Source: a virus
DNA: 40,940 nt
Direction: 5' to 3' (one strand)
Virus record (IMG/VR): IMGVR_UViG_3300042923_000849
Location: 1-40,940 of that record
The notes beneath the pieces are model-generated. The model worked only from the letters and a program-made list of their open reading frames with translations. It was not told where the DNA came from and ran no database searches. This document shows, one piece after another, positions 20,201-40,768 of this stretch (position 1 is its first letter; each line of letters starts with the position of its first letter). The position numbers and the translations under genes were made by a program.

Positions 20201-20404
20201 TTACGGCTCACGTTCGGCGGGCAGCGATCTGAGCCACCGCTGTCCCTCTTCGCGGAGGATGAGCGGCTTCGCTCCCGCGTATGAGGGGGTGAGCTTGTTC
20301 GCGGTGATCTGCTGCCGGATGAATTCCTTCGACAGCGACACGGCGGTCGCGAACTCGTCGAGGGAGTACGCGAGCTTGTCGAGTACCGGGGTCTGCGTCG
20401 TCAT
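20201..20404 (-). CDS. Excisionase/MerR-type DNA-binding protein
   Basis: The 67-residue protein has the HTH_17/excisionase plan: YSLDEFATAVSLSKEFIRQQITANKLTPSYAGAKPLILREEGQRWLRSL, that is a helix-turn-helix followed by a short wing. It could be the excisionase, acting with the integrase at attP, or an early regulator. It is the second gene of the early operon and would be made as lysogeny breaks, which suits excision. The ATG at 20404 overlaps the upstream stop as ATGA. Confidence 0.7.
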   Translation of the reverse strand: MTTQTPVLDKLAYSLDEFATAVSLSKEFIRQQITANKLTPSYAGAKPLILREEGQRWLRSLPAEREP

Positions 20405-20601
20405 GCGAACTGCTCCTTCATGGGGACGCCAAGAAGGCCACCGACCTTCACCCGTTCGGAGACGGTCACGCTGTCGCTGTCGATGAGGACAGCGTTGACA
20501 CGCTCCGGGGTGAGGCCGGTGGCCTTTGCGATGGACTCGGTCGTCTGACCGGTCGTGGCGTGGAATCTTCTACGGGACACATTTGGGAGCGTACAACCCA
20601 T
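20401..20601 (-). CDS. Cro-like small DNA-binding protein
   Basis: I start this 66-residue protein at ATG 20601, where AGGA lies six bases upstream. An earlier in-frame ATG at 20622 would fall almost at the promoter. The centre (TTGQTTESIAKATGLTPERVNAVL) forms a helix-turn-helix. It is the first lytic gene, divergent from the repressor, which is the position of cro. It presumably represses the repressor promoter, but this is inferred from context. Confidence 0.65.
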   Translation of the reverse strand: MGCTLPNVSRRRFHATTGQTTESIAKATGLTPERVNAVLIDSDSVTVSERVKVGGLLGVPMKEQFA

Positions 20602-20672
20602 TTCTGTCCTATGCAACCCCATTCGAGACAATAGGGGCCAATACTGTCCGGTTAACTGGCTAAACTGGCCCC
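20602..20672. promoter_or_regulatory. Immunity switch: divergent promoters and operator-like repeats
   Basis: Rightward, TAAACT at 20661-20666 lies six bases before the repressor ATG (20673), so the repressor mRNA is probably leaderless. Leftward, a possible -35 TTAACC and -10 TATTGT precede the cro-like gene. GGGGCCA (20634-20640) and TGGCCCC (20666-20672) form an inverted repeat around CCGGTTAACTGG (20648-20659), itself palindromic at 10 of 12 positions. These are candidate repressor or Cro operators. Promoter positions are predictions by eye. Confidence 0.55.
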
Positions 20673-21059
20673 ATGCCTCCGAAGCGGAAACCACCCGTCA
20701 CGTTCGACGAGCACCTCGGCGCGGTCATCGAGGGAGTCGCGATCCCCTTCGGTGGACGCGAGTTCCTCACTGGACTCACCGACTGGTCGAGCAAGACAGT
20801 CGACAGGCGCATCCGCGGTCAGGCGCCGTTCCTGGTCTCCGAGCTTGAGGTGGTCGCCCACGCGACGGGCACGCCGGCACACGAACTCGTCGGGACTGCG
20901 CTGCGGAACTACGGGGGCATCGAGAAGCTGCTGCAGGAGTCGGTGTCGGACGCGGAACGTAACGTCACTCCCGAAGACAACGTGACGTACCTGGGTCATC
21001 GGACGCCACCGCTCGAGGCAGCTGCTTCGGAGGGCGACCGGGTCCCGCCGAAGGACTAG
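20673..21059 (+). CDS. Immunity repressor
   Basis: This 128-residue protein begins at the first base of its likely transcript and is the only plus-strand regulator facing the lytic operon. The first 85 residues contain a helix-turn-helix-like region (EFLTGLTDWSSKTVDRRIRGQAPFLVSELEVVAHATG). The last 45 are polar and probably disordered, a possible target for the adjacent ImmA-like protease. It has no LexA-like peptidase domain, so induction would not be by RecA-driven self-cleavage but by the ImmA route. That is inference from the gene pair. Confidence 0.75.
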   Translation: MPPKRKPPVTFDEHLGAVIEGVAIPFGGREFLTGLTDWSSKTVDRRIRGQAPFLVSELEVVAHATGTPAHELVGTALRNYGGIEKLLQESVSDAERNVTPEDNVTYLGHRTPPLEAAASEGDRVPPKD

Positions 21060-21071
21060 GGGGAGCCCTTC

Positions 21072-21509
21072 TTGCGCGAACTGCTCGCTCACGCATCGAC
21101 GCTGGGCGTCTCCGTGCATGTGGCGCACCTCCCGGCCCCGTACCGCGGGTACTACGACTCCGACAGACGGATGGTCGTGTACGGGTTCGACCTGACACCC
21201 ATCGAACGGCGATGCGTCCTCGCGCACGAACTCGGGCACGCGTTCTACGACCACCGGTGCCGTGGGCATCAGGCGTCGGAGGACGCCGCCGACCTGTACG
21301 CCGCGCATCTCCTCATTGACCCCGCCGAGTACGCGGAGGTGGAGGCGGTCTACCCGTCGGTGGAGACGATCGCGGAAGAACTGGGGGTCACCGTTGACCT
21401 CGTGCGCATCTTCCAGGAACGCAGTCTCACCCGGCTCCGCGGCATCACGTACGCGCGGTCACGGATGGGCGTGGGCCAGTTCCGGCACGCCTGGGCGCAC
21501 CAGAACTAG
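21072..21509 (+). CDS. ImmA-like metallopeptidase
   Basis: The 145-residue protein starts at TTG 21072 with AGGGGGAG upstream. It contains VLAHELGHAFYDHRC with the zinc site H52-E53-x-x-H56 and a downstream SEDAADLYAAHLLI segment supplying the third ligand, the pattern of the ImmA/IrrE family (DUF955). In ICEBs1 and many phages ImmA cleaves the partner repressor after DNA damage. Here it follows the repressor by twelve bases, so the same pairing is likely. Its stop shares CTAG with the stop of the convergent integrase gene. Confidence 0.88.
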   Translation: MRELLAHASTLGVSVHVAHLPAPYRGYYDSDRRMVVYGFDLTPIERRCVLAHELGHAFYDHRCRGHQASEDAADLYAAHLLIDPAEYAEVEAVYPSVETIAEELGVTVDLVRIFQERSLTRLRGITYARSRMGVGQFRHAWAHQN

Positions 21510-22681
21510 GCGGCGGGCGGCGCGAGGAGCGCGCCCAGCTGCTGCATCGCCACAGTGAGCCGTGCCTGGTTCGCGCGGGACTTGTACCCGCGGGTCATCG
21601 CCCGAGTGGAGTGGCCAACGATCTCCACGATGATGTCCTCGTCGATCCCCGCGAGGTACAGCAGGTCAACGGCGGTGTGGCGGAGGTCGTGGAGGCGTGC
21701 GGCGCGCTGGATGCCGGTCTCCGCGAGGAGGCGGTTCCACGCTTTCGTGTCCCGGTCAGGGTCACGCGGCCGCCCGTCCTCCGTGAACACGAGACCCCAC
21801 TCGTTCGGTTCCATGGCCGCGATGTGGCGGGTCAGGATCGTGCGCAGCGGATCCACGAGGGGGATGATGCGGGTGCCGGCCGCCGACTTAGGTCGGGTCA
21901 GGTAGAGGCCGCCGCGCACGTGCCGCCATTCGAAGTCGGCGGGGGCGATGGGGATGCCGTCGTCGGTGAGCTTGAGGCGTTGCATCTGCCAGGACAGGTC
22001 GATGTACTCACCGACCCGGTCCGCTTCGATGCCGATCACCTCACCCCGCCGGGCGCCTGTGAGGAGCCCGGTCGCCCAGCGTGCACCATCGGGCAGGTTG
22101 GAAACGTGTTCGAGGAGGTGGATCGCTTCGTCGAGGTCGAGGACGTCGAGCTGCTTCACTTCCTTGCGGGGTGCGTCGACGAGCTTCGCCGGGTTCCGGC
22201 CGATGTGACCTTCGCGGACGGCGATCTCCAACGCGCGGGACATGATGCGGTGCGCGTTGAGAGCGTACGTCGACGTCAGGCCGCGGTCGAGGATCCGCTG
22301 GTGCACCTGCCGCACGGTGGTGGGGGTGACTTTGTCGAGCTTCGTCCGGGCGCCGAGGCCCGGGATGATGTGCTGGTTCGTGGTGGACCGGTAGCCGGCG
22401 AACGACTTGGGGCGGATCTCGTTGACGGCGACGTTGTCGAGCCAGTACGTGAACCACGTCTGCACGTCGATCGCCGCGCTCGGTAGGTCGCCGCGGGTCT
22501 CGAGCTCGCGTTTCAGTTCGGCGAGCTTCGCGAGGACGACCTTCTTGTCCTTCGACCGAAGCACTTTCCGGCGCCGCTTCCCGGGCTCCGAGGGGAGTTC
22601 GACGACAGCGGTCCAGTACTTGAGCGGCTGGGACGTGTCCTTCGGGACCCGGTAGACCGAGCCCTCGCCTTTACCCCTCAC
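21506..22681 (-). CDS. int: Tyrosine integrase
   Basis: The 391-residue protein starts at GTG 22681 (GTGA overlap with the upstream gene). The N-terminal arm-binding domain (about 1-65, EGSVYRVPKD...YWTAVVELP) is followed by a SAM-like core-binding domain (70-165). The catalytic domain has R211 (TGARRGEV), a lysine near 265 (TRPKS), H331-x-x-R334 (LHDLRHTA), H357 (EIVGHST) and the nucleophile Y366 (RGYKSRA). All catalytic residues are present. It should recombine the attP at 23.5 kb with a host tRNA-Phe gene. The frame extending beyond 22681 is not part of the gene. Confidence 0.95.
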   Translation of the reverse strand: MRGKGEGSVYRVPKDTSQPLKYWTAVVELPSEPGKRRRKVLRSKDKKVVLAKLAELKRELETRGDLPSAAIDVQTWFTYWLDNVAVNEIRPKSFAGYRSTTNQHIIPGLGARTKLDKVTPTTVRQVHQRILDRGLTSTYALNAHRIMSRALEIAVREGHIGRNPAKLVDAPRKEVKQLDVLDLDEAIHLLEHVSNLPDGARWATGLLTGARRGEVIGIEADRVGEYIDLSWQMQRLKLTDDGIPIAPADFEWRHVRGGLYLTRPKSAAGTRIIPLVDPLRTILTRHIAAMEPNEWGLVFTEDGRPRDPDRDTKAWNRLLAETGIQRAARLHDLRHTAVDLLYLAGIDEDIIVEIVGHSTRAMTRGYKSRANQARLTVAMQQLGALLAPPAA

Positions 22682-22917
22682 GACGACTCCGAACCGATCG
22701 GTTCGGCGCCGAGCACCCCGGACTCGATTAGCGCAGCCGCTGCAGCGAGGTGCTTCGCTACGAGGAAGTAGCTCGGGTCCAGACGCACCATGTCGATGTG
22801 CGGATCGGGTCGCCAGGTGTTCCGGTCGGTGCCGTACTCGGCATCCATGAGCACCGCGGCGATGCGCTCCTGCCAGGTGGGCGGTGTCTGCAGCGGGTTG
22901 TCGAGTCGCTTCGCCAT
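22678..22917 (-). CDS. Hypothetical protein upstream of the integrase (79 aa)
   Basis: The start is ATG 22917, which shares a base with the stop of the (frameshifted) DUF4326 gene in its ancestral frame. The protein has TPPTWQERIAAVLMDAEYGTDR and a helical DPSYFLVAKHLAAAAALIESG. It is coupled to the integrase by GTGA. In the deposited sequence this frame is continuous with the first part of the DUF4326 gene, but the overlap arrangement shows two genes. Function unknown. Confidence 0.6.
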   Translation of the reverse strand: MAKRLDNPLQTPPTWQERIAAVLMDAEYGTDRNTWRPDPHIDMVRLDPSYFLVAKHLAAAAALIESGVLGAEPIGSESS

Positions 22918-23307
22918 CACATAACCCCATCCGCGTGGTTCCCGTTTGCGATCTCGAGCAGGACGTCCGCGTGGCAGGGCTGGTCGAGTGGGCAGAAGCA
23001 CCATGAGGTTCTTGCCGCGCAGCTGCGCCCGCACTTCGCCCACCCCGTACAGGAGACGACCGTTCGTCAGCCAGAGACGGAATTCGCTGACCGCGGTGGC
23101 GCGGGCCTCTGTCTGGGTCGATTCGTGTGCGAGGGATGGACGCTCGACGTGGCGGACGACCCAGCACATGCCGTCGTCGTTCATCTGGTCGCACTCTTCG
23201 TGCGTGATTCGGAAGGGGTTGCCCCAGCGGGACGGGCGGGCGACGCTTACCGTGTTCTCCGGCTTGCGCCACCCCGCCGTCCGCTTCTGCTGAATACGCT
23301 CCGGCAT
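22917..23307 (-). pseudogene. DUF4326 protein gene, interrupted by a one-base frameshift
   Basis: From ATG 23307 (AAGGAG six bases upstream) the frame encodes RIQQKRTAGWRKPENTVSVA and RPSRWGNPF, the start of the DUF4326 family, up to LRGKNLM. The expected ending CFCPLDQPCHADVLLEIAN follows only after skipping one base at about 23001-23002 (CC on the plus strand), and then ends at a TGA overlapping the next ATG. Without the extra base the protein would have 129 residues. Either the phage gene is broken or one base is a sequencing error. The family function is unknown. Confidence 0.75.
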
Positions 23308-23427
23308 CAGTAGCTCCTTCTCCCGTGAGCAGACCACAGCTGTTGGTTGATGACACCGACGTGGGTGTGTCTTCTTCTGCGGGGTTCGAATGGCTTGTTC
23401 ATGTGGATCCTTCCGGCCAAGGATTAG

Positions 23428-24063: not shown

Positions 24064-24624
24064 TCAGTATCCCTGGTTCGTGGATCGAATCCAGGCCTGG
24101 TGTTCAAGCCCGTGGGCGCGACCATCGAGCGCCCTTCCCACCACGCCATTTACGACGTCTGGCACCCAGAGGAGGGGCTCGCTGGGTCCTGGCATGTGGT
24201 CCACGCGCATCGGTCGTAGCAATACGCGTTTAGCGCGCAACGCTGCGACCATGTGGCGATCGAGAGAATCGCTGGGTCCACGCGACTCGAAGACGGCGTG
24301 GTCCACTTCCATCATTCCGAGTTCGTAGAGAAGCATCTCGAGGCATGCCCGTCGCGAACGCTCAGGGGGCTCATTCTGAGTGTGCTCCCGGACGATAACG
24401 ATGTGGATGAGCTCCAAGCCCGCAACGGTACGAGCGATTTCCGCTCGCCTGGCATCGGTCGCATCGCGCCAGTGAAGCTTCTTGGCTCCCTTTGGCAGAA
24501 GACTCCGCATCGCGCTACGAACCTCGTCGACGTCGGCACCGTAAGCGAACGATGCAGTGAGCAGAAACGGCCGGCCACTGCCGGTGCCTCCGATCTGCGA
24601 CTCGTCCACGAATGCCGTCTGCAC
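24064..24624 (-). CDS. DUF3800-like protein (186 aa)
   Basis: The likely start is GTG 24624, seven bases downstream of a TAGGCT -10 box, so its mRNA would be leaderless. The protein begins QTAFVDESQIGG, the FVDES start seen in DUF3800 and related RNase H-like proteins. It continues with PFLLTASFAYG, GAKKLHWRDATDARRAEIARTV and a C-terminal half with LLYELGMMEVDHAVFESRG and NGVVGRALDG. Such proteins are found in accessory and mobile regions and their activity is not established. It is divergent from a zinc-ribbon gene. Confidence 0.65.
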   Translation of the reverse strand: MQTAFVDESQIGGTGSGRPFLLTASFAYGADVDEVRSAMRSLLPKGAKKLHWRDATDARRAEIARTVAGLELIHIVIVREHTQNEPPERSRRACLEMLLYELGMMEVDHAVFESRGPSDSLDRHMVAALRAKRVLLRPMRVDHMPGPSEPLLWVPDVVNGVVGRALDGRAHGLEHQAWIRSTNQGY

Positions 24625-24650
24625 GATCGAGAGCCTACGATGACGGCGTG
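24622..24650. promoter_or_regulatory. Overlapping divergent leaderless promoters
   Basis: Minus strand: TAGGCT (24637-24632) lies seven bases before GTG 24624. Plus strand: TACGAT (24636-24641) lies six bases before GTG 24648. Both fit the actinobacterial TANNNT -10 box with transcription starting at the start codon. The two boxes share two bases, so the promoters cannot fire at the same time. No clear -35 elements are seen. Confidence 0.5.
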
Positions 24651-24782
24651 GACGACCCGACCGATGACATGCGGCAGCCTCACTGCCCGAAGTGCGACGC
24701 AGTCCTACGCGATGCCGCCCGCGGCTATTGGTGTCCCGGCTGCGAGCTCGTGTACATGCCAGACGTGGATCAGCCGCGATGA
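24648..24782 (+). CDS. Small zinc-ribbon protein (44 aa)
   Basis: The gene starts at GTG 24648 and ends with a TGA overlapping the next ATG. The peptide has HCPKCD (about 12-17) and YWCPGCE (about 27-33), two CxxC knuckles that make a complete small zinc ribbon. It is co-transcribed with the 48-residue gene and divergent from the DUF3800-like gene. Function unknown, though nucleic-acid or protein binding is likely. Confidence 0.6.
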   Translation: MDDPTDDMRQPHCPKCDAVLRDAARGYWCPGCELVYMPDVDQPR

Positions 24783-25923: not shown

Positions 25924-26478
25924 CTATGGGTGAAGCGCGGACACAGCACCGACGTACTCGATGTGAACGAGTTGCCACTCGAACGCGTCTTGATGCAGAT
26001 TCCAGGCCGCGGCGTGGTTGACGAGCGCGTAGTGATACCGCCACCGGCCCACTCTTCGGAAATCGACGCATTCGACCACCGCGCGATCGACCAGGGTGTC
26101 GGGGTGTCGTAGCTCACCTGGATCGATCTCGACCCGGAGCTCCTTCGCTGCGTCGAACACTGGCATGGGCTGCATGAACGGGGCGCTGATCGTCGCGACC
26201 ATCGGTCCACGTCGGAAGTACCACGCGACGACGTCGACCGCGGGATGTTCGCCCTCAACGCTCAGCACCATCTCCCTCGCCTCCTGAGAGATGTGGAACA
26301 CCGGCCGAAGTGCTGCGCTCAGAGCCTCGATCGCGGCCGTCGCAGTCACTTCCGATCGCTTCGCTGCTCGTCTCGACTCGAACGCCGCCCAAACCGCGGC
26401 GCCAGCTGCCACGACCGTCCCCACAGCAACCAGCACATCCAGGAGCACGGAGAAGGCGCCGACCGGTGCGTGGCTCAT
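25924..26478 (-). CDS. Membrane-anchored protein paired with the acyltransferase (184 aa)
   Basis: The start is ATG 26478 (or GTG 26481), sharing a base with the acyltransferase stop. An N-terminal membrane helix (SVLLDVLVAVGTVVAAGAAVWAAF, about 10-33) is followed by a basic Arg/Lys/Ala stretch (ESRRAAKRSEVTATAAIEAL) and a soluble beta-rich domain of about 130 residues (DVVAWYFRRGPMVATISAPFM; GRWRYHYALVNHAAAWNL). The soluble part probably faces the cytoplasm. The family is not recognised. It is co-transcribed with the acyltransferase and ends before a terminator. Confidence 0.65.
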   Translation of the reverse strand: MSHAPVGAFSVLLDVLVAVGTVVAAGAAVWAAFESRRAAKRSEVTATAAIEALSAALRPVFHISQEAREMVLSVEGEHPAVDVVAWYFRRGPMVATISAPFMQPMPVFDAAKELRVEIDPGELRHPDTLVDRAVVECVDFRRVGRWRYHYALVNHAAAWNLHQDAFEWQLVHIEYVGAVSALHP

Positions 26479-27644
26479 CACCGGCCCGCTTCAGTCCTCT
26501 GTGCCTCGCGCGAACCCTTGCGAAACTCGGCCTTCTGGTGCGTGGTGATGAAGTGCCGCTCGACGAGCCGGTGGAACACGTAAGCCAGCGCGCCGGCCGC
26601 GGGCAGGACGACTCCCAGCATGACGATCAGCTGCAGCCACGTCGGCAGGCCGAGCGGAAGCAGGAGCAGGTTCCCGAGCGCCAGCATCGGCGAGTGGATC
26701 AGGTACAAGCTGTACGACCAGAGGCCGACCCAGACCAAGAACCGAGTCTCGAGGATGCGGTGCAGCCAGGTGCGGCGGCCGTCCAGGGACGCCGCGGCGA
26801 GCCAGAGCAGCGCTAGAGCAATCGCCGCGCCGATGAGCGACTCTGAGTAAAGGTTCCGCGCTTCTGCGCTGTCGGGGTCGATGTACAGCCAGCCGACCGC
26901 TGCGACGAACATGATCAATGCGGGCCATCCCGCCTTGAACCGGGTGCGGCGTACAGCGAGGAAGGCGGCGAGCATGCCCATGCCGAAGAGACCGATTAGC
27001 CAGAAGTGCGCGGCGCCAACGTTCGGCACGAACCGGCTCAGGGCAAAGCCGAGCCCTATCGCGATCGCGGTTGTCCACCACGGCCCGAGACGACGCCAGA
27101 GCGGCAGCAACACGAGCGGCATCAGGAAGTAGATCTGCCACTCAGTGGCGATCGACCAGGCGGGACCGTTGATCTGGTAGATCCACTCGGGCGACAGGTT
27201 GTGCACGACGAGCAGGTGCGAGACCACGCCGCCGATCGTCACCGGAATCTTGTTGTCCCAGGCGGTGCCCGACTGCACCTGCAGCACGGGGATCGTCCAG
27301 ATCATGATGAGGAACAGCAGCAACGACGCATAGTACGGCGGAAGGATGCGCTTCGCGCGCCGGCCGATGTACCTGCCGAACCCACCGCGCAGCTCGAGGT
27401 CTTCGGACCGCGCCACGGGGAGCATCAGCACGAAGCCCGACAGGACGATGAACACGGGGACGGCGTAGTTCCCGATCTCGGCGATGCGGTCCACCAGCGG
27501 CAGGTCTTCCTGCACGTCGCCGAGGTAGCCGGTGAACATTGTGGCGTGATAGATCGCCACGGTGAGCGCCGCGATAGCCCGCAGACCGTCAGCGAACTCG
27601 AACTTGGGGCGAGCAGGTGGCGCGGCAGTCACGGTCAAGAGCAT
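26478..27644 (-). CDS. Membrane acyltransferase (acyltransferase 3 family)
   Basis: The 388-residue protein has about ten membrane helices and the acyltransferase-3 signature: FADGLRAIAALTVAIYHA (R22, H33) at the N-terminus, GYAVPVFIVLSGFVL-like sequence in the next helix, RYIGRRAKRILPPYY, and GPAWSIATEWQIYFLMPL with a conserved glutamate. Such enzymes (OatA, O-antigen and glycan acetylases) transfer acetyl groups to surface carbohydrates. In a temperate phage this suggests modification of the host surface receptor and exclusion of other phages. It starts at ATG 27644 with AGGGA upstream and lies outside the late operon, between two terminators. Confidence 0.9.
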   Translation of the reverse strand: MLLTVTAAPPARPKFEFADGLRAIAALTVAIYHATMFTGYLGDVQEDLPLVDRIAEIGNYAVPVFIVLSGFVLMLPVARSEDLELRGGFGRYIGRRAKRILPPYYASLLLFLIMIWTIPVLQVQSGTAWDNKIPVTIGGVVSHLLVVHNLSPEWIYQINGPAWSIATEWQIYFLMPLVLLPLWRRLGPWWTTAIAIGLGFALSRFVPNVGAAHFWLIGLFGMGMLAAFLAVRRTRFKAGWPALIMFVAAVGWLYIDPDSAEARNLYSESLIGAAIALALLWLAAASLDGRRTWLHRILETRFLVWVGLWSYSLYLIHSPMLALGNLLLLPLGLPTWLQLIVMLGVVLPAAGALAYVFHRLVERHFITTHQKAEFRKGSREAQRTEAGR

Positions 27645-27665
27645 GGCAGATCCCTGGCACGCGCG

Positions 27666-27702
27666 AAAAACCCCCTCCCCAGCCGGAGCCAGAGAGGGGG
27701 TT
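27666..27702 (-). terminator. Terminator at the end of the late operon
   Basis: On the minus strand AACCCCCTC (27702-27694) and GAGGGGGTT (27677-27669) form a stem with a GC-rich loop, running into TTTTT (27670-27666). It lies 14 bases after the tailspike stop. This is a textbook intrinsic terminator and marks the end of the structural transcript. Confidence 0.85.
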
Positions 27703-27715
27703 CCTGATCGCGGGT

Positions 27716-30214
27716 CTACGGGTCGCCGGTGTTGCCAGCGATTCGTACGCCTGTCATCGTCGCGCCCGAAGTCGTCACAGTCGCGAGCTGCGTCGCCGAC
27801 GTCTGCAGATCGTAGATGTCGTTGTTCTGGATACGGCCACCCTCGAGCGTGCTCCCCGACGGGACGAGCACACCGGACTGGTCGCCGGCGACGGCCGCCT
27901 TCCCGTTGGCGACGATCTGATTGTCCGACACCGCGACGTAGCGAATCTTCCGACCCGTCGCCGAGTACAGCCGGACACCGGATCGACCGTTCAGGCGGAT
28001 CTGATTCCCGCGGATCGAGACACCAGTGATGTCCTTGCCGTTGTCGCCAGCCGAGAGCGCGATGCCCCACGACTTGTTCTCGATGATCTGATTCGCCTCG
28101 ACGATGCTGTGCAGGTAGTCGCGCGTGTTCGTCGTCGTCCCGGTGGGGGTCGAGATGAAGATGCCGATACCTTCCTGCGCACCGGGCCCGGTGCAGCCAC
28201 GGATCAGGTTGCCGAGGATCGTCGTGTGCAGTCCCGGGTAAGCGTCCGGGAGGGTGGTCTTCCCGACCCGAATGCCGACGTTGCAGCCGATGATCACGTT
28301 CCCCTGGATGAGCGTGCCAGTGGAACCGGTGTCCGAGATGCCGTAGTACATCCCGATGATCACGTTGTTCAGGATGCGGTAGCCGTGCACACCGAGGTCA
28401 GGGTCTGCCCCGGTCTGCGCCTCAGTGAAGATGCCGTTATGGCCCGGACCGTTCACCCCAGACGACTGCGTGCCGATGATGATGTTGTTCGCGATCAGGG
28501 TCGGCTCCGTGGCGCCGGTCCCCTTCGTACCGGCACCGATCCCCGAGCCGCCCGGGCCGACGCCAGCGGGCGCCAGGCGCCCCGGGCGCTTGATCACGTT
28601 GTCGGTGATCGAGCACTGGTCGTACGAGTGGTCGAACGGGATGGCGGTCGCTGGTGTGTTCCAGACGTTCATGTCGTGGATGGAGCAGCGCTGCACGTAG
28701 TAGATGTTCAGAGGCTTCACCGCCGACCCGTAGCCAGCGGTGTGGATCATCGCCTCCGCTTCGATCCCGAAGTCGTGGAAGTCGGCGCCGACGAGCGGGT
28801 TCACGGCGGAGCGCCCTGCACAGGTGAGCCAGTCAGACGTGCCAGCGGCGGACGAGTCACCCGGCCGGTCTGCCACCACGTGCACCCAGGACGCTTCCCG
28901 GCTCACACCAGCCCACGAGACATAGTTCTGGACGCTGAGCGGCGTGGTGACGATCGTGCGACCCTGCGGGATGTGGATGGTCCCCCCACCGGCAGAGACC
29001 GCCGCGACCTGAGCTGCTGCGAACGCTGCGTCGTCGGGGGTTCCGAAGATGCACCGGGCGCCGGACACGGTCGACGTTGCGTTGCTTCCGAGAGTCGCCA
29101 CGCCTGACGCGACTGACTGGATGACACCGATCCACACACCGTCGTTCGCGTTCGCGACGATCGGACCGGCGCCCATCACAGCGAGGGTCTTCCCGATGTC
29201 GCCTGTCGTGAAGGGGCGAGCTGCGGAAGAGACCGTGGGCTGCCCGGTGACGGTCGCGGCATCCGTGAGCAGGATCGCGTCCATCGCCGCGCCGTAGTCC
29301 GCGATGTTGAATCGGCTGTTGTGGCCGGGCTGGAAGTCAAGCCCGGCGGGGAGCCGCAGCGACTCCGAGACGGCGACCATCTTGCGGGCGGGGGTCGGGA
29401 GAGACGTCGCCCACTCCCATGCGCCGAACTTGGGTGTCAGGCCGGCGCTGGGCGTGCTGTAGACGCCCGCGAAGACGTTGCTGCCGAACGTGGTCCACTC
29501 ACCCGAGGTGAGCGTGTACGAGTGCACGGCGACGTCATTGACGAACAGACGCAGCACGTGGTCGTCGGTGAGCACGAGCTCGACCTTGTCGCCCACCTGC
29601 GCGACGACAGAAGTAGCGGAGCCGAGCGTGGTGTTCGTCAGGCCCGTGAGGACGGTGCCGGTGGACTTCTGCACCACATAGACGCGGGACGTTCCGGATA
29701 CGGCCCACCGCAGCAAACGGATGTCGCTCGCGTCGAACCGGCCGGCGATGAACCCGCCAAACGACGACGCCGAGCCCACAGCGTTGATGCCGTTGATGAT
29801 CACGCGGCTGACACCCACCGCAGACCCGACACCGACGTACATGCACGTCAGGCCCGTCGTCCCGGCGACTGCCTGCATCGACAGCCCGTCCGAGGTGACG
29901 TTGAACACCCCGGCCGGAGCATTGTCGGGCCGGACGATGATCGGGCTCACCGTGACAGTGGTGTTCTGTCCCTCGAGACTCGTTGACGACGAGTAGTCGG
30001 TGGGATCGATCACGTGACTGACGTTCGCCGATCCTTCCGAACCGGGAAAGTCGTACAGGCCGTCGTCGCCGAAGAAGTTGTCCTTGACGACGACAACTTC
30101 TTCAGCGAGCCGCCCGCCCAGAGCGGACTCCGCCTCGTTTGCGATCTGCGCGACAGCGCGCGCCCACGCGGTGATGCCCGGTTCATTCGGATTGACGTTC
30201 TCGTCGACGGCCAT
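27716..30214 (-). CDS. Tailspike with lectin-like and beta-helix domains
   Basis: The 832-residue protein has a short N-terminal helical segment (NPNEPGITAWARAVAQIANEAESAL) probably binding the tail. A concanavalin/glucanase-like beta domain follows (about 40-275; KVELVLTDDHVLRLFVNDVAVHSYTL). Then comes a right-handed parallel beta-helix from the NIADYGA motif near 305 to the end, with repeated coils such as ILNNVIIGMYYGI, IQGNVIIGCNVGI and IRGNQIRLNGRSGV. This is the structure of depolymerase tailspikes that bind and cut surface polysaccharide. It is the last gene of the late operon, with GAGGGGG before its ATG. Confidence 0.85.
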   Translation of the reverse strand: MAVDENVNPNEPGITAWARAVAQIANEAESALGGRLAEEVVVVKDNFFGDDGLYDFPGSEGSANVSHVIDPTDYSSSTSLEGQNTTVTVSPIIVRPDNAPAGVFNVTSDGLSMQAVAGTTGLTCMYVGVGSAVGVSRVIINGINAVGSASSFGGFIAGRFDASDIRLLRWAVSGTSRVYVVQKSTGTVLTGLTNTTLGSATSVVAQVGDKVELVLTDDHVLRLFVNDVAVHSYTLTSGEWTTFGSNVFAGVYSTPSAGLTPKFGAWEWATSLPTPARKMVAVSESLRLPAGLDFQPGHNSRFNIADYGAAMDAILLTDAATVTGQPTVSSAARPFTTGDIGKTLAVMGAGPIVANANDGVWIGVIQSVASGVATLGSNATSTVSGARCIFGTPDDAAFAAAQVAAVSAGGGTIHIPQGRTIVTTPLSVQNYVSWAGVSREASWVHVVADRPGDSSAAGTSDWLTCAGRSAVNPLVGADFHDFGIEAEAMIHTAGYGSAVKPLNIYYVQRCSIHDMNVWNTPATAIPFDHSYDQCSITDNVIKRPGRLAPAGVGPGGSGIGAGTKGTGATEPTLIANNIIIGTQSSGVNGPGHNGIFTEAQTGADPDLGVHGYRILNNVIIGMYYGISDTGSTGTLIQGNVIIGCNVGIRVGKTTLPDAYPGLHTTILGNLIRGCTGPGAQEGIGIFISTPTGTTTNTRDYLHSIVEANQIIENKSWGIALSAGDNGKDITGVSIRGNQIRLNGRSGVRLYSATGRKIRYVAVSDNQIVANGKAAVAGDQSGVLVPSGSTLEGGRIQNNDIYDLQTSATQLATVTTSGATMTGVRIAGNTGDP

Positions 30215-35782: not shown

Positions 35783-36715
35783 CTACAGCCACGCGCCGAT
35801 TTCCTTCAGCCCGAACGACAGGCCCTTGACGTGGCGGCCGTCGTGCTCGAACACGTGCTCGTAGATCTCGCTGATGTCGGACCCAGCGAACTGGCATCCG
35901 GTGTTGCCTGTGCCTCGGACGTGCGATCCGCTGAGCGACGGCGTCACCGTGTTTGGGTGCAGCTGCGCGAGCATCGACGCGATTGAGACCGTGGAAGCGA
36001 CGCTCGAGGTACGGGCGAGGCCGATGGTGACGTAGTCGTACGTGTCACCGTTGATCGACTGGTTCAGGCGGGTCGCCGCCGTCGGGGAGAGGGCCGCCGC
36101 GTTCTGCACGAGGGTCGCGCCACCGGTCTTGTGGTGGGCCTCCGCGCGGACGACTCCAGTTCCGGTGCTGGCACCTGACCAGCCCCAGCGGAGCGTGTAC
36201 CCGGGCGGGATGGGGATCACGAACCGTCGCGCGATCTCAGTGGGTAGCGTCGCCGCTGTGTGCGTCACGTTGAACGTCACCGTGCGCGGCGGCTGCCGGT
36301 ACGAGCTCGCCGCCGTCGCACTGTTGGACGCGTACGGCCCGATCCACGGCCAGTCGCCCGTGAGAGCCAGTGCCGGCATCGCCCAGTGCGGGGCGAAGAG
36401 GTTCGCTGCAGCGTTCATCGGGTCGAGGAAATACAGCAGGTCGTTCGGGTTGAACCCATCGACCACCGCTCCGAGGTCGTTCCACATACCCGTCCGGTAC
36501 TCCTGGAACACATCCAGTCCGGCAGGCCCGTGCGCTTCCCGGTGCGCGAAGTTGAACTCGAACTCGACGTGCTCACCGTATGACCGGGACGCGAAGCCGC
36601 CACCTCGCTCGAGCGTCCCTGCCTCGTACGAGGAAAGCACCCGACGCTGAACCCCCGCGGCAGGCTGCGGGACCCACTGGAACCGCTGAAGGGTCCCGAA
36701 CCATAGTTCGTTCAT
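35783..36715 (-). CDS. Minor tail protein after the tape measure (310 aa)
   Basis: The start is ATG 36715, overlapping the tape-measure stop as ATGA. The N-terminal 110 residues (LERGGGFASRSYGEHVEFEFNF ... GFNPNDLLYFLDPM) are like the distal-tail proteins of actinophages, which dock the tail tip to the tube. A beta-rich C-terminal part (RTVTFNVTHTAATLPTE; GYTLRWGWSGAST) resembles a galactose-binding-like domain. Position right after the tape measure is that of the distal tail protein. Confidence 0.75.
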   Translation of the reverse strand: MNELWFGTLQRFQWVPQPAAGVQRRVLSSYEAGTLERGGGFASRSYGEHVEFEFNFAHREAHGPAGLDVFQEYRTGMWNDLGAVVDGFNPNDLLYFLDPMNAAANLFAPHWAMPALALTGDWPWIGPYASNSATAASSYRQPPRTVTFNVTHTAATLPTEIARRFVIPIPPGYTLRWGWSGASTGTGVVRAEAHHKTGGATLVQNAAALSPTAATRLNQSINGDTYDYVTIGLARTSSVASTVSIASMLAQLHPNTVTPSLSGSHVRGTGNTGCQFAGSDISEIYEHVFEHDGRHVKGLSFGLKEIGAWL

Positions 36716-39423
36716 CCGGACCCTCCACGCCACGCCGAGTTAGCGTTCGACTCGTTCGCGGCCCAACCGATCGCGTCGCGGTCGATCATGATGTTGTTGA
36801 TGATGTTCCGCTGGAGGTCCCGCATCTGCGCCGGGTCGAGGATCGCGAAAACCGGCCCCCCGCCGCCTCGGGAGGGCACGCTCGACGCGTACCGAGGCTG
36901 GACCTCGCCACCGTTTGCGTAGCCCCGGAAGGCCCCGTTGTTGATCGCGTCGAGCAGGGCCCGGTTCCGTCTCGTCGCTGCCGCGTTGATGACGTACTCG
37001 CCGTTCGAGAGCATCGCTGGGATCGAGTCAGAAGTGCCCGTTCCCGGACCGCTGATGTAACCACCAGACGCCTGCTTGATTGCTGCTCTTCCGCTACCGC
37101 CGCCAGAGTTGATCGCGTCGATGTACACGTTGAACCGCCGCCCAGCGTTCCGCCGGATGAAGTCCTCGACGGAGCTCTGTGCTGCTGCCGTCTGCGCCAG
37201 AATCTCCACTTCCTTCTCAGAGGGGAGTGCGAAGACCTTGTCTGCGAGTTTCTGCACTTCGCCCGCGTCGTATCCGGCCGCGACCGCGGAGTCGATGAAC
37301 GCTTGACGTTGGGCGGCGAGAGTGCCCATGTACTTGTCGGTCGCGTCTTTCGACGACATCGTTTTCAGGTCGAGGTCGTACTGCGCGGCTGCGGCGGCCT
37401 GCGCTTTCCCCGCCACATCGGAGAGCATGTCTGCGTTGCTCGAACCGGCAACGGTCGACTCATCCAGTGACAAAGCGAACCCGTCGAGTGTCCCGTTGAG
37501 CTGCTCGTACTCGTCGCGCTGACGCTGCACTTCAGCGCTGATGCCGGCGAGAGCAGTCTGGTAGGCGGCATTCGACGAGACCGCGTCCTGGCCGACGCCG
37601 TTGGCTTCGTTGACCGCGTCAATGAGTTGGCGCAGGTTGCTCTGCAATTCGGCTGCCTTGTCGGCTGCCTCCTGATAGGCGGCCGCTGCGTTCTCGGTCG
37701 AATCAGCCGACTCGGCCGCCGCGGCGGCTTGGTCGTCGAAGTTCTGGTCGGCGCGCTCAAGACCTTCGGACAGGTGGTTGAGCGTGTTGACCGAGTTTGC
37801 GATGGACGGATCGAACGGGTTCCCGTTGGCGTAGTCGTACAGGCGCTGCCGCAACTCTTCGACGGCGTCACCACCCTCGAGGATCGCGTCCGTGAGTTCT
37901 TTCTGCGAGATGCCGGCGTTCTTCGCGCCGGCGAACGCATCGGCCTCGGCGAGCTTCTTCGCGACCAGTTCCCGCGTGTAATCGGTGACCGCGCCGGTCG
38001 ACTCCTCCAGGGAGTCCTCGAACTCCGCAGCGGTGGCAGTCGCTTCGGCCTGGCGCTGCGCCCAGATCGCGAACGCTGCACCGGCGACCGCCAGCGCCCC
38101 CGACGCGAGGCCGATGGTCCGTGCGGCCGACGCCCCCGAGACGTTCAGGACGGATAGCGCGGTTTTGAACTGGACGATCTTGGGCACCGCCAGCAGTGCC
38201 GCGCCGCCAGCGAGGGCAATTGCGCCAACGAGTCCGGTGATGACCCCTGCTGCACCGAGCACGGGCGTGGGAAGCTGACCCACAGCATCGACGAGGCCCG
38301 TCGCGCCCTGCACGAGTGCGCGCAGCATGTCGTTCGCGCCCGACCCGGACTTGATGAGCGCCGTATCGAGAGCTCCCCCGAGCTTCTCGACGTCGCCGGA
38401 GAGGTTGTTGAGCCGGTCGGCGGCGACTTTCGCGGCGTACCCGGAGTCGTTGGTCTGGTCGATGTACTTCCGGATGCCGTCGGCGCCCTCGTCGTACAGG
38501 ACGTTCGCGACACGGAGGGCGTCGTTCCCGAAGATCGTCGCCAGCGCCGCGTTCCGCTGCTCGTCGGTCAGCCCGCCGAGGTTCGACTCCAACTGGCCAG
38601 CGATCTCGTCGAACGAACGCATCTGGCCGTTCGCGTCGTAGAAGGACAGGTTGTACTCGTCCATCACAGCGCGGGCCTTGTCCGTGGGCGCCTGCAGAGC
38701 GATGATCGCCGCCTTCAGCGACGTACCCGCGTCAGAACCGATCAGACCGGCGTCAGCGAAAGCCGACAGGACACCCGTGGTGTCCTCGATCGACTGACCA
38801 GCGCCGTTCGCGACCAGACCCGCCTGATTGAGCGCCTCCCCCAACTGGCTGACGCTACCCACCGCCTTGCCGGCACCAGCCGCGAGAAGGTCCGCGACGT
38901 GTGGAACGTCGCCGCCTTCGAGGTTGAACTGCTTCACCGCGACGGCAGCGATGTTCGCTGCGTCCGCGACACTCAGCTGACCGGCTGCAGCGAGGTCCAG
39001 GGCACCGTTCAGACCGCCGTCGAGGATCTGCTGGGTCGTGAGACCCGCCTTGCCCAGTTCTTCAATCGCCCCTGCGGCTTCCGTAGCGGTGAACACCGTG
39101 GAGGCACCAGCCTCGAGCGCCGCCTCACGGAGAAGGCCCATGTTCTCGGCCGACTCCTGCGTAGCCGCCTTGACGTTCGACATCGCGGCGTCGAACTCCG
39201 CGAACCGGGCCACAGCGAGACCGAACGCGACAGCCGCGACAGCACCGATCGCTGTAACGCCCGCGCCGACTTCGCGCATCGCGTCGGACTGCTTCGAGAA
39301 CCGGTCCGCCGCCTGCTCGGCCTCGGTCCCTGTCTTCTTCGTCGCCGTCTGCGCCCGCTGCATGTCGGCGATGTACTGACCCACCGCAGCGGTGAGCGTG
39401 ACCTTGGTTACGCGATCGGCCAA
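36712..39423 (-). CDS. Tape measure protein
   Basis: The 903-residue protein starts at TTG 39423 with GGGAGG six bases upstream. The N-terminal part (VTKVTLTAAVGQYIADMQRAQTATKKTGTEAEQAADRF) and the core FSKQSDAMREVGAGVTAIGAVAAVAFGLAVARFAEFDAAMSNVKAAT-like region are typical of tape measures. Hydrophobic segments follow near 375-405 and 435-460, then long coiled coils. At about 1.5 angstroms per residue it predicts a tail of roughly 135 nm. It sets tail length and passes into the host upon infection. Confidence 0.95.
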   Translation of the reverse strand: MADRVTKVTLTAAVGQYIADMQRAQTATKKTGTEAEQAADRFSKQSDAMREVGAGVTAIGAVAAVAFGLAVARFAEFDAAMSNVKAATQESAENMGLLREAALEAGASTVFTATEAAGAIEELGKAGLTTQQILDGGLNGALDLAAAGQLSVADAANIAAVAVKQFNLEGGDVPHVADLLAAGAGKAVGSVSQLGEALNQAGLVANGAGQSIEDTTGVLSAFADAGLIGSDAGTSLKAAIIALQAPTDKARAVMDEYNLSFYDANGQMRSFDEIAGQLESNLGGLTDEQRNAALATIFGNDALRVANVLYDEGADGIRKYIDQTNDSGYAAKVAADRLNNLSGDVEKLGGALDTALIKSGSGANDMLRALVQGATGLVDAVGQLPTPVLGAAGVITGLVGAIALAGGAALLAVPKIVQFKTALSVLNVSGASAARTIGLASGALAVAGAAFAIWAQRQAEATATAAEFEDSLEESTGAVTDYTRELVAKKLAEADAFAGAKNAGISQKELTDAILEGGDAVEELRQRLYDYANGNPFDPSIANSVNTLNHLSEGLERADQNFDDQAAAAAESADSTENAAAAYQEAADKAAELQSNLRQLIDAVNEANGVGQDAVSSNAAYQTALAGISAEVQRQRDEYEQLNGTLDGFALSLDESTVAGSSNADMLSDVAGKAQAAAAAQYDLDLKTMSSKDATDKYMGTLAAQRQAFIDSAVAAGYDAGEVQKLADKVFALPSEKEVEILAQTAAAQSSVEDFIRRNAGRRFNVYIDAINSGGGSGRAAIKQASGGYISGPGTGTSDSIPAMLSNGEYVINAAATRRNRALLDAINNGAFRGYANGGEVQPRYASSVPSRGGGGPVFAILDPAQMRDLQRNIINNIMIDRDAIGWAANESNANSAWRGGSG

Positions 39424-39459
39424 GACGCACCTCCCGCGGTTGAGTTGTAGAGTCGGCGC

Positions 39460-39828
39460 ATGAAACGCGCCGTCGTCCTGCTTGTTGTTCTGCTCGGGCT
39501 CACGGGGTGTACTGCCACGGCCGCGCCGGCGAAGACGACACCGGCAGTCGCGGAAGCCCCATCGATCAGCGCATCGTCGTCACTGGACGAACTCATCGCG
39601 TACGGGCGGTCCCTGTCCGGGTCGACACCGGATCTCGCAGAGGCCGTGTCTGAGTGGACCCAGTACATGTCGGATGCGGTTGCTGAATCGGACCTACCGA
39701 CGATGCTTCGCAACTCGGTGAATCAGGACCTGACGAAGCTGAACGCGGACGTGCAAGCGGAGCCGTCGGACGCGGCCGCTCACTTGGGTGACCTGAACGC
39801 TATCCTGGATGAGATCGAGGCCGCCTAG
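39460..39828 (+). CDS. Lipoprotein gene inserted antisense in the tail operon
   Basis: This 122-residue protein begins MKRAVVLLVVLLGLTGC, a lipoprotein signal peptide with lipobox LTGC (C17 would be lipidated). An Ala/Thr/Pro-rich linker and a helical domain follow (LDELIAYGRSLSG...SVNQDLTKLNADVQ...LNAILDEIEA). TAGAGT (39448-39453) lies six bases before the ATG, so it likely has its own promoter and leaderless mRNA. It is the only plus-strand gene inside the late operon and shares CTAG with the convergent chaperone stop. Phage-encoded lipoproteins often block DNA entry of rival phages. The role here is inferred. Confidence 0.85.
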   Translation: MKRAVVLLVVLLGLTGCTATAAPAKTTPAVAEAPSISASSSLDELIAYGRSLSGSTPDLAEAVSEWTQYMSDAVAESDLPTMLRNSVNQDLTKLNADVQAEPSDAAAHLGDLNAILDEIEAA

Positions 39829-40241
39829 AACTCGACCTTGCGGACGGTCCAGAACTTGCCGTCCATGTCCGGGTCTTCGCCGAGTTCTTTCCGGTGCAGT
39901 TCGATCGCTTCGAGTCGAGCCTTCTCAGCCCAGTTGGTGAACGGACCCTCAGCGACGTACCGGAACCCGGACTCGTACTCCGTGGGGTCTGCGCCGTCTG
40001 ACGTCGCCTCCGGCAACCACTCGCCGTTCGGGCCGGTGTTGCTCCGGATGATCTGCTCAGCGGCGATCAGATCCAGTTGCTCTTCGTCCCACTCGGGTTC
40101 CGACCAGGACGTGGTCATGCGGCCGTCGTCGTCGTATTCGTAGAAGGTTCGTGGCTCCCACCCCCAGAGTCGCCGTGGGGCGATTCCGGAGCGCGCGGCG
40201 AAAGCTACTTGGCGTCGGAGCGCGTCGCTGCTCCGGAGCCT
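39825..40241 (-). CDS. Tail assembly chaperone, second frame (T part of G-T)
   Basis: This is the downstream half of a -1 frameshift pair. Read from the slip site at 40241 the frame gives ALRRQVAFAARSGIAPRRLW, then GWEPRTF, YEYDDDGRM and SEPEWDEEQLDLIAAEQIIRS, the sequence pattern of the second reading frame of actinophage chaperones. No start codon with ribosome-binding site opens the frame. An internal ATG at 40118 exists but would drop the conserved GWEPRTF part. The fused G-T protein would be about 314 residues and binds the tape measure during tail assembly. Confidence 0.8.
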   Translation of the reverse strand, partial: RLRSSDALRRQVAFAARSGIAPRRLWGWEPRTFYEYDDDGRMTTSWSEPEWDEEQLDLIAAEQIIRSNTGPNGEWLPEATSDGADPTEYESGFRYVAEGPFTNWAEKARLEAIELHRKELGEDPDMDGKFWTVRKVEF

Positions 40242-40768
40242 TTTACCAGTGCCTGTCGGCGCTGTTCCGGCTCGTATTCGTTGAGAGCCCAGATCGCGTC
40301 ACGGATCTTGCCGATGTCGCTGCCGGAGAGCACATCGAACAGTTCCGACCACTCATGGTTGGTGAGCTCGACGGGGATGCCGTCCTCGAGCCGTGCCCCG
40401 TACGCCCGCCCAGACTTGTCGCGGAACCGTGCGGCGGCCTCGCAGACGGCGTCGAAGTTGTAGCCGTAGTGGCGGTCGATCATGACGTCCGGCCGCACGG
40501 GATGCAGGGACGTGAGCACAGACCAGTCCTTGCCAGGCAGGCGTGTGAACCGAAGGGTCTCGACCGACCCGGTCGCTTCGAGCTCCGCCAGCCGCTCGCG
40601 GATCTCGTCAGCCGGCGACTTCGACGCGAGACGGGTGTCGTCGTCAGCGGCCTCGAGCTCCGCTTCCAGGCGGTCTCGTTCGTTCGTGTCGCCGTCGAGG
40701 ACGACGGTCACGTCTTTGGTGGGCACGTTGGCGCGCGCCTTGGCAAGCTTCTCTGAGAAGTCAGACAT
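40205..40768 (-). CDS. Tail assembly chaperone, first frame (G)
   Basis: The 187-residue protein starts at ATG 40768 (GGAAGAG upstream; the longer frame beyond it is not coding). It is acidic and helical: MSDFSEKLAKARANVPTKDV, LEAELEAADDDTRLASKSPADEIRERLAEL, then a globular part with FDAVCEAAARFRDKSGRAYG and a C-terminal LSGSDIGKIRDAIWALNEY. This is the standard layout of the G protein, made in excess over the frameshifted G-T. It lies between major tail and tape measure genes, as expected. Confidence 0.85.
   Translation of the reverse strand: MSDFSEKLAKARANVPTKDVTVVLDGDTNERDRLEAELEAADDDTRLASKSPADEIRERLAELEATGSVETLRFTRLPGKDWSVLTSLHPVRPDVMIDRHYGYNFDAVCEAAARFRDKSGRAYGARLEDGIPVELTNHEWSELFDVLSGSDIGKIRDAIWALNEYEPEQRRQALVKGSGAATRSDAK
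40239..40249 (-). other. Probable -1 frameshift site of the tail chaperones
   Basis: On the minus strand the zero frame reads CTG GTA AAA GGC. Slipping back one base on the A-run (40244-40241) gives AGG CTC CGG and enters the frame of the second chaperone, open until 39825. The heptamer is not the strict XXXYYYZ type, so slippage at AAAA or AAAG is inferred from the overlap of frames and the strong protein similarity of the second frame. Confidence 0.6.

Follow-up and report, generated by a model that had tools for sequence, protein, structure and literature searches.

A lipoprotein gene located between the tail assembly chaperone (TAC) and tape measure protein (TMP) genes of a temperate actinobacterial phage, and transcribed against both, was found to occupy a recurrent antisense slot whose cargo is exchanged among related phages. 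We give about even weight to the complete interpretation of this arrangement: that the gene is an envelope moron expressed in lysogeny from a recurrent antisense cassette slot, that it probably serves superinfection exclusion at DNA injection, and that late transcription silences it. Three of its components taken together, namely leaderless expression in the lysogen, a lipid-anchored envelope product and exchange of the cargo, are considered very probable.

The phage and its lysogeny genes

The window, that is, the whole stretch of 40,940 bases that was analyzed, corresponds to one whole virus record, in which head, tail, recombination and integrase genes are present. The phage is temperate, since a tyrosine integrase is encoded (21506-23356, minus strand; PF00589, E=4.5e-10), and its host is a soil-type actinobacterium. 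A likely immunity repressor gene (20673-21059, plus strand; weak match to BetR, PF08667, E=3.6e-4) adjoins a gene for an ImmA/IrrE-type (M78) peptidase (21072-21509, plus strand; PF06114, E=9.3e-11). Both are located on the same strand as the lipoprotein gene and the late genes are located on the opposite one. With a small cro-like ORF on the minus strand, the repressor candidate and the peptidase gene make up a likely immunity switch at 20401-21509.

Other genes of this part of the window were also annotated. A membrane acyltransferase gene (26478-28070, minus strand; PF01757, E=5.5e-34), which is a candidate surface-modifying gene, is located between the tail region and the integrase gene. 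Near the integrase gene, the ORFs at 24064-24624 (minus strand) and 24648-24782 (plus strand) have TANNNT boxes upstream at leaderless spacing; the longer ORF that covers the first of them matched no family, and the product of the second has the look of a zinc ribbon when inspected by eye.

The lipoprotein gene is antisense to the tail operon

The ORF at 39460-39828 (plus strand) starts with an ATG codon and encodes 122 aa, exactly as described in the initial annotation, which had identified the product as a lipoprotein. Its N-terminus, MKRAVVLLVVLLGLTGC, is a lipoprotein signal peptide with the lipobox LTGC at residues 14-17, the cysteine being Cys17 (39460-39510, plus strand); the score against the LPAM_1 profile was below the cut-off. 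The gene had also been described as an antisense moron between TAC and TMP, and this is what the neighbourhood shows: a frameshifted TAC gene on one side and the TMP gene on the other, both on the minus strand, in an arrangement that recurs in relatives.

The first (G) frame of TAC (40205-40768, minus strand) is placed between the major tail protein and TMP genes and is followed by the -1 frame (T) part (39825-40220, minus strand), for which relatives were found. The TMP gene (36712-39423, minus strand) was identified by PF10145 (E=1.5e-48) and as a PHROG tape measure; it starts with TTG at 39423, with the Shine-Dalgarno sequence GGGAGG at 39430-39435. The divergent starts of the TMP and lipoprotein genes are separated by 36 nt, and the convergent stop codons of the TAC and lipoprotein genes have the tetranucleotide CTAG in common (39825-39828), a 4-nt overlap that was found again in relatives.

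The G+C content of the lipoprotein ORF by codon position (0.66/0.49/0.76) fits that of the real genes of the window. Because this composition is gene-like, and because the arrangement recurs in many relatives together with its conserved promoter geometry, the sequence argues that the ORF did not arise by chance.

The promoter is of the leaderless type

The conserved promoter element TTGAGTTGTAGAGTCGGCGC (39440-39459, plus strand) contains the -10-like hexamer TAGAGT (39448-39453), which ends 6 nt before the ATG of the lipoprotein gene, and no Shine-Dalgarno sequence was seen ahead of this codon. Judged from the sequence, this is the arrangement of an actinobacterial leaderless gene. Both the separate TANNNT promoter and the probable leaderless mRNA that had been proposed for the gene are in agreement with these observations, and the geometry of the TAGAGT box is conserved and enriched in relatives, as would be expected for a prophage-expressed moron with a promoter of its own.

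Both strands of the window were scanned for ORFs of at least 40 codons with TANNNT located 5-8 nt before ATG or GTG, and only seven such ORFs were found in the whole window. Two of them have an ATG at exactly 6 nt from the box: the lipoprotein gene and the likely repressor gene, in which TAAACT (20661-20666) has the same leaderless geometry. Of the five others, four fall within 20.4-25.2 kb, where the repressor and integrase genes lie. A repressor candidate with a similar leaderless promoter, on the same strand and in a temperate phage, fits expression of the lipoprotein from the prophage. In its 14-nt form the promoter element occurs once in the window, and the 15-nt form was matched in 91 viral stretches, mostly unrelated contigs.

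The lipoprotein belongs to a rare family and is predicted to be a helical bundle

No family was found for the lipoprotein in Pfam, PHROGs or PADLOC, and no close relative came from phage collections or IMG/VR, whether the protein itself or a profile of 4 sequences served as query, in keeping with the earlier remark that the family was not a recognized one. A profile search of 396 genomes of the order yielded no match either. Three convincing relatives (30-37% identity) were obtained when 400 genomes from the family to which Microbacterium sp. VKM Ac-2923 belongs were searched. One of these (L063/L110) is located in a Cryobacterium prophage remnant; the other two are stand-alone lipoprotein genes of host chromosomes, L117 at 1471-1869, flanked by leuA-like and recO-like genes, and L118 at 1501-1890. 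As these two are ordinary host chromosomal genes, the domain found in the window may have a general envelope role.

AlphaFold2, with a model built on two sequences, predicted a helical-bundle domain for residues 42-122 (39583-39825, plus strand), with helices at residues 42-51, 59-76, 81-100 and 102-121 and a pLDDT of at least about 90 over most of the domain. On this model, the mature lipoprotein, which is acidic (charge -13), is predicted to be a four-helix bundle with rare relatives. Foldseek gave no match at E<=0.001 in the PDB or BFVD for this model, which rests on two sequences, and neither sequence nor fold matched those of known exclusion proteins. A weak PDB sequence match to 3jqh (E=1.5e-5) was discarded as a helix/coil artefact; no stretch of it passes the limit alone.

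The TAC-TMP junction of relatives is a recurrent slot

Related loci were collected by TAC- and TMP-guided searches, giving a redundant set of 91 junctions. The gap was shorter than 100 nt in 31 of these and an insert was present in 60, about two thirds of this redundant set. The initial annotation had presented the junction as the most conserved one in siphoviruses; with inserts at this frequency it is not inviolate.

After removal of near copies, 36 filled slots of related actinophages, a roughly non-redundant sample, were scored for an antisense ORF whose end is close to the TAC stop codon. In 30 of the 36, TANNNT was located 5-8 nt before an in-frame ATG or GTG, compared with 2.25 expected from dinucleotide shuffles; the maximum reached by the shuffles was 10 among 200,000 simulations. 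A strongly hydrophobic segment was detected in 32 of the 36 slot products versus 15% of 509 further ORFs from the same loci. Lipoboxes were present in 13 of the 36 products and the exact 4-nt overlap with the TAC stop codon in half of the slots (18/36). As the slots are not fully independent by descent, these numbers describe a pattern and not a formal probability. Unanchored cargo was rare, the few cases being L045, L026, L034 and gp17 of phage Periwinkle, for which no membrane anchor is evident.

Integrase genes were equally common in phages with filled (16/18) and with empty (7/8) slots, and their presence was rejected as a feature separating the two groups. The slot is empty (about 12 nt) in Brevibacterium phage AGM1, for which the search for a tyrosine integrase was negative; empty slots also occur in many integrase-bearing relatives.

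Among isolated phages, a reverse gene is annotated between TAC and TMP in Footloose, ChuckDuck, TripleJ, Kukla, Persistence, Seahorse, Hestia, Auxilium, Constance and Periwinkle, all ten of which have an integrase; the genes are mostly labelled as hypothetical or membrane proteins. Leaderless expression from the slot would be common, not universal, since in several Arthrobacter slot genes TATGAT is accompanied by a leader and a Shine-Dalgarno sequence.

Additional structures were seen at some junctions. HNH endonuclease genes are located on the sense strand beside the antisense cassette in L010, L013 and L105 (Footloose). The sequence L014:3764-3952 looks like a deletion or recombination product, in which the C-terminal part of a DUF732 protein is kept and the promoter and signal peptide are lost. 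In L107 (Arthrobacter phage Pitbull), an unannotated antisense ORF for a two-helix membrane protein lies between 2283 and 2501, in a junction annotated as empty.

The cargo is exchanged and the promoter and signal peptide are kept

Close relatives of the window phage, with TMP N-termini 80% identical, carry DUF732 lipoproteins in the slot, and DUF732 (PF05305) was above the cut-off in six tested slot proteins of relatives. The window lipoprotein did not match this profile and its membership of the family was rejected. The promoter element TTGAGTTGTAGAGTCRGCGC, the signal peptide and the CTAG end are common to the window phage and the phages with DUF732 in the slot. When the window lipoprotein was compared with the DUF732 lipoproteins, amino acid identity was 47-65% over residues 1-17 and 15-19% over the mature part. 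Because the promoter, signal peptide and CTAG end are held in common and the mature parts are unrelated, the sequences indicate that the cargo was replaced and the promoter and signal peptide were retained.

Other slots carried different lipoproteins (L002, L052, L138) or membrane proteins with one or two helices (L019, L024, L028, L049, L092, L125, L130). The DUF732 slot lipoproteins are under purifying selection, with a median dN/dS of 0.13 for 78 pairs. Divergence of the TMP C-terminus does not follow the type of cargo, since the phages with DUF732 proteins differ among themselves as much.

Proposed function and alternative explanations

The following sequence of events is proposed. In the prophage, when the late genes are silent, the -10 box TANNNT would be used by a host sigma factor to drive a leaderless mRNA, as the geometry of the start suggests. 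The signal peptide and lipobox indicate that the product would be exported and lipid-anchored, displaying a small acidic bundle of helices, as the fold is predicted, outside the membrane. There it would most likely act against related siphophages by interfering with the injection of their DNA, perhaps through contact with the tape measure on its way out of the tail, in analogy to HK97 gp15 and Ltp. After induction, head-on late transcription would silence the lipoprotein gene while the phage makes its own TMP, which is the logic of the noncontiguous operon of Staphylococcus Ith/Tha (PMC11087260). Between phages, as comparison shows, the cargo is exchanged and the promoter and signal peptide are retained. 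Exclusion at the injection of DNA by related siphophages is derived from the position at the junction and from analogy, and it falls a little short of an even chance; the absence of covariation with TMP and the existence of host chromosomal relatives weaken it.

Those same relatives, stand-alone host genes of which one lies between leuA-like and recO-like genes, would also fit lysogenic conversion without exclusion, in which the slot tolerates host-derived envelope genes that alter how the lysogen behaves with respect to surface, stress or nutrients, TMP being an incidental neighbour. Two points favour conversion: the cargo of the slot is very diverse, and the DUF732 family consists of cellular proteins of actinobacteria. 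However, a membrane anchor is present in 32 of the 36 cargos irrespective of family, and in HK97 this junction is occupied by a protein with proven exclusion activity; we regard conversion without exclusion as rather unlikely. The lipobox, which predicts a surface location, would also suit a block of adsorption, with the lipoprotein occupying or modifying a surface receptor of the same phage group and not acting on injection. Prophage lipoproteins that block receptors exist, such as Llp of T5, but the small two-helix membrane proteins present in the slot of relatives would expose little surface for masking, and this explanation appears improbable.

The higher conservation of the promoter than of the cargo could point to a mainly regulatory role, the antisense promoter lowering TAC-TMP read-through in the lysogen and the protein being secondary, as the antisense overlapping units of Staphylococcus phage 80alpha work (PMC11087260). 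Purifying selection on the cargo (dN/dS 0.13), its consistent membrane anchoring and the many relatives with no insert at all at the junction make such a role very improbable. That the ORF arose by chance and has no function is hardly credible: spurious ORFs are abundant in high-GC DNA and no close relative was found in phage or IMG/VR collections, but the common promoter and signal peptide, the exact stop overlap, the recurrence in relatives and the homologues with an intact domain all contradict it.

The exclusion reading can be extended, tentatively and with some doubt, to actinobacterial temperate siphophages in general. In these, an antisense slot between TAC and TMP would be dedicated to exchangeable cargo, and a leaderless promoter active in lysogeny would express from it membrane-anchored exclusion proteins of many unrelated families, encoded beside their target TMP and turned off by head-on late transcription. 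If this is true, one position in the genome is enough to predict a large and unmined collection of exclusion proteins of actinobacterial phages, comprising DUF732 lipoproteins, two-helix membrane proteins and other helical lipoproteins, to be found by position and promoter and not by homology. It would also suggest a function for some of the DUF732 proteins encoded by phages, and a simple way in which a phage avoids excluding itself once induced.

Comparison with known systems

A recurrent slot with exchanged cargo is a wider pattern than the initial annotation had claimed. Reverse genes at the TAC-TMP junction are already in print for Gordonia cluster DN, and the passage of that paper dealing with the reverse gene proposes no function for it (PMC9476921). 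No statement of a general slot, of its leaderless promoter or of cargo exchange was found in the literature searched, which consisted mostly of papers available without subscription. The reverse genes of Gordonia cluster DN and of Arthrobacter phages are similar to the window gene in being antisense at the junction, often with the 4-nt overlap of the TAC stop codon; they differ from it in carrying other cargo and, for several of the Arthrobacter genes, in having leaders with a Shine-Dalgarno sequence. The DUF732 slot lipoproteins of Microbacterium-type phages agree with the window lipoprotein in slot, strand, promoter, signal peptide and CTAG end, and differ in their unrelated mature domain.

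Tha and Ith of Staphylococcus phage 80alpha are encoded in a noncontiguous operon with antisense overlapping units (PMC11087260). In both phages an antisense gene with its own promoter lies within an operon that serves the opposite state of the life cycle; in 80alpha this gene is an inhibitor within the lysogeny operon, whereas in the window it would be a lysogeny gene within the late operon. Tab of Pseudomonas phage JBD26 is a moron of the late operon that is expressed from the prophage and acts on the tape measure of invaders (PMC10884400). The window gene is likewise a moron inside a late operon and is proposed to be prophage-expressed and TMP-directed; unlike it, Tab is encoded between the terminase genes and acts on tail assembly.

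The product had initially been compared with Ltp of Streptococcus phage TP-J34, a prophage lipoprotein that acts on TMP and whose gene is located in the lysogeny module (PMC3952083). The comparison holds in part. Both are small prophage lipoproteins with a lipoprotein signal peptide, tethered outside the membrane (as predicted here for the window product), and the acidic mature part is as expected of a TMP binder such as Ltp. The likeness does not extend to gene location, the window gene being in the tail operon, or to the repeat domains of Ltp; membership of the Ltp family was rejected, as no credible PDB sequence relative and, with the two-sequence model, no PDB fold at E<=0.001 was found.

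HK97 gp15, found at the same junction, offers the closest analogy, rather than Ltp. The gp15 gene, labelled as encoding a moron product, is located between the frameshifted TAC and TMP genes on the sense strand and is followed by a terminator. Papers citing the original work on gp15 describe it as an exclusion protein of the membrane that prevents the entry of DNA, the block being lifted by exchange of the tail tube/TMP region (PMC10883804, PMC4737114). The window gene differs in being antisense and overlapping the TAC stop codon, and its product is a predicted lipoprotein whereas gp15 is an inner-membrane protein of an E. coli phage. What the two have in common is that each is a lone small gene inserted in a temperate siphophage at the exact junction of the frameshifted TAC and the TMP genes, with a product located in the membrane for gp15 (PMC10883804) and predicted to be so for the window gene.
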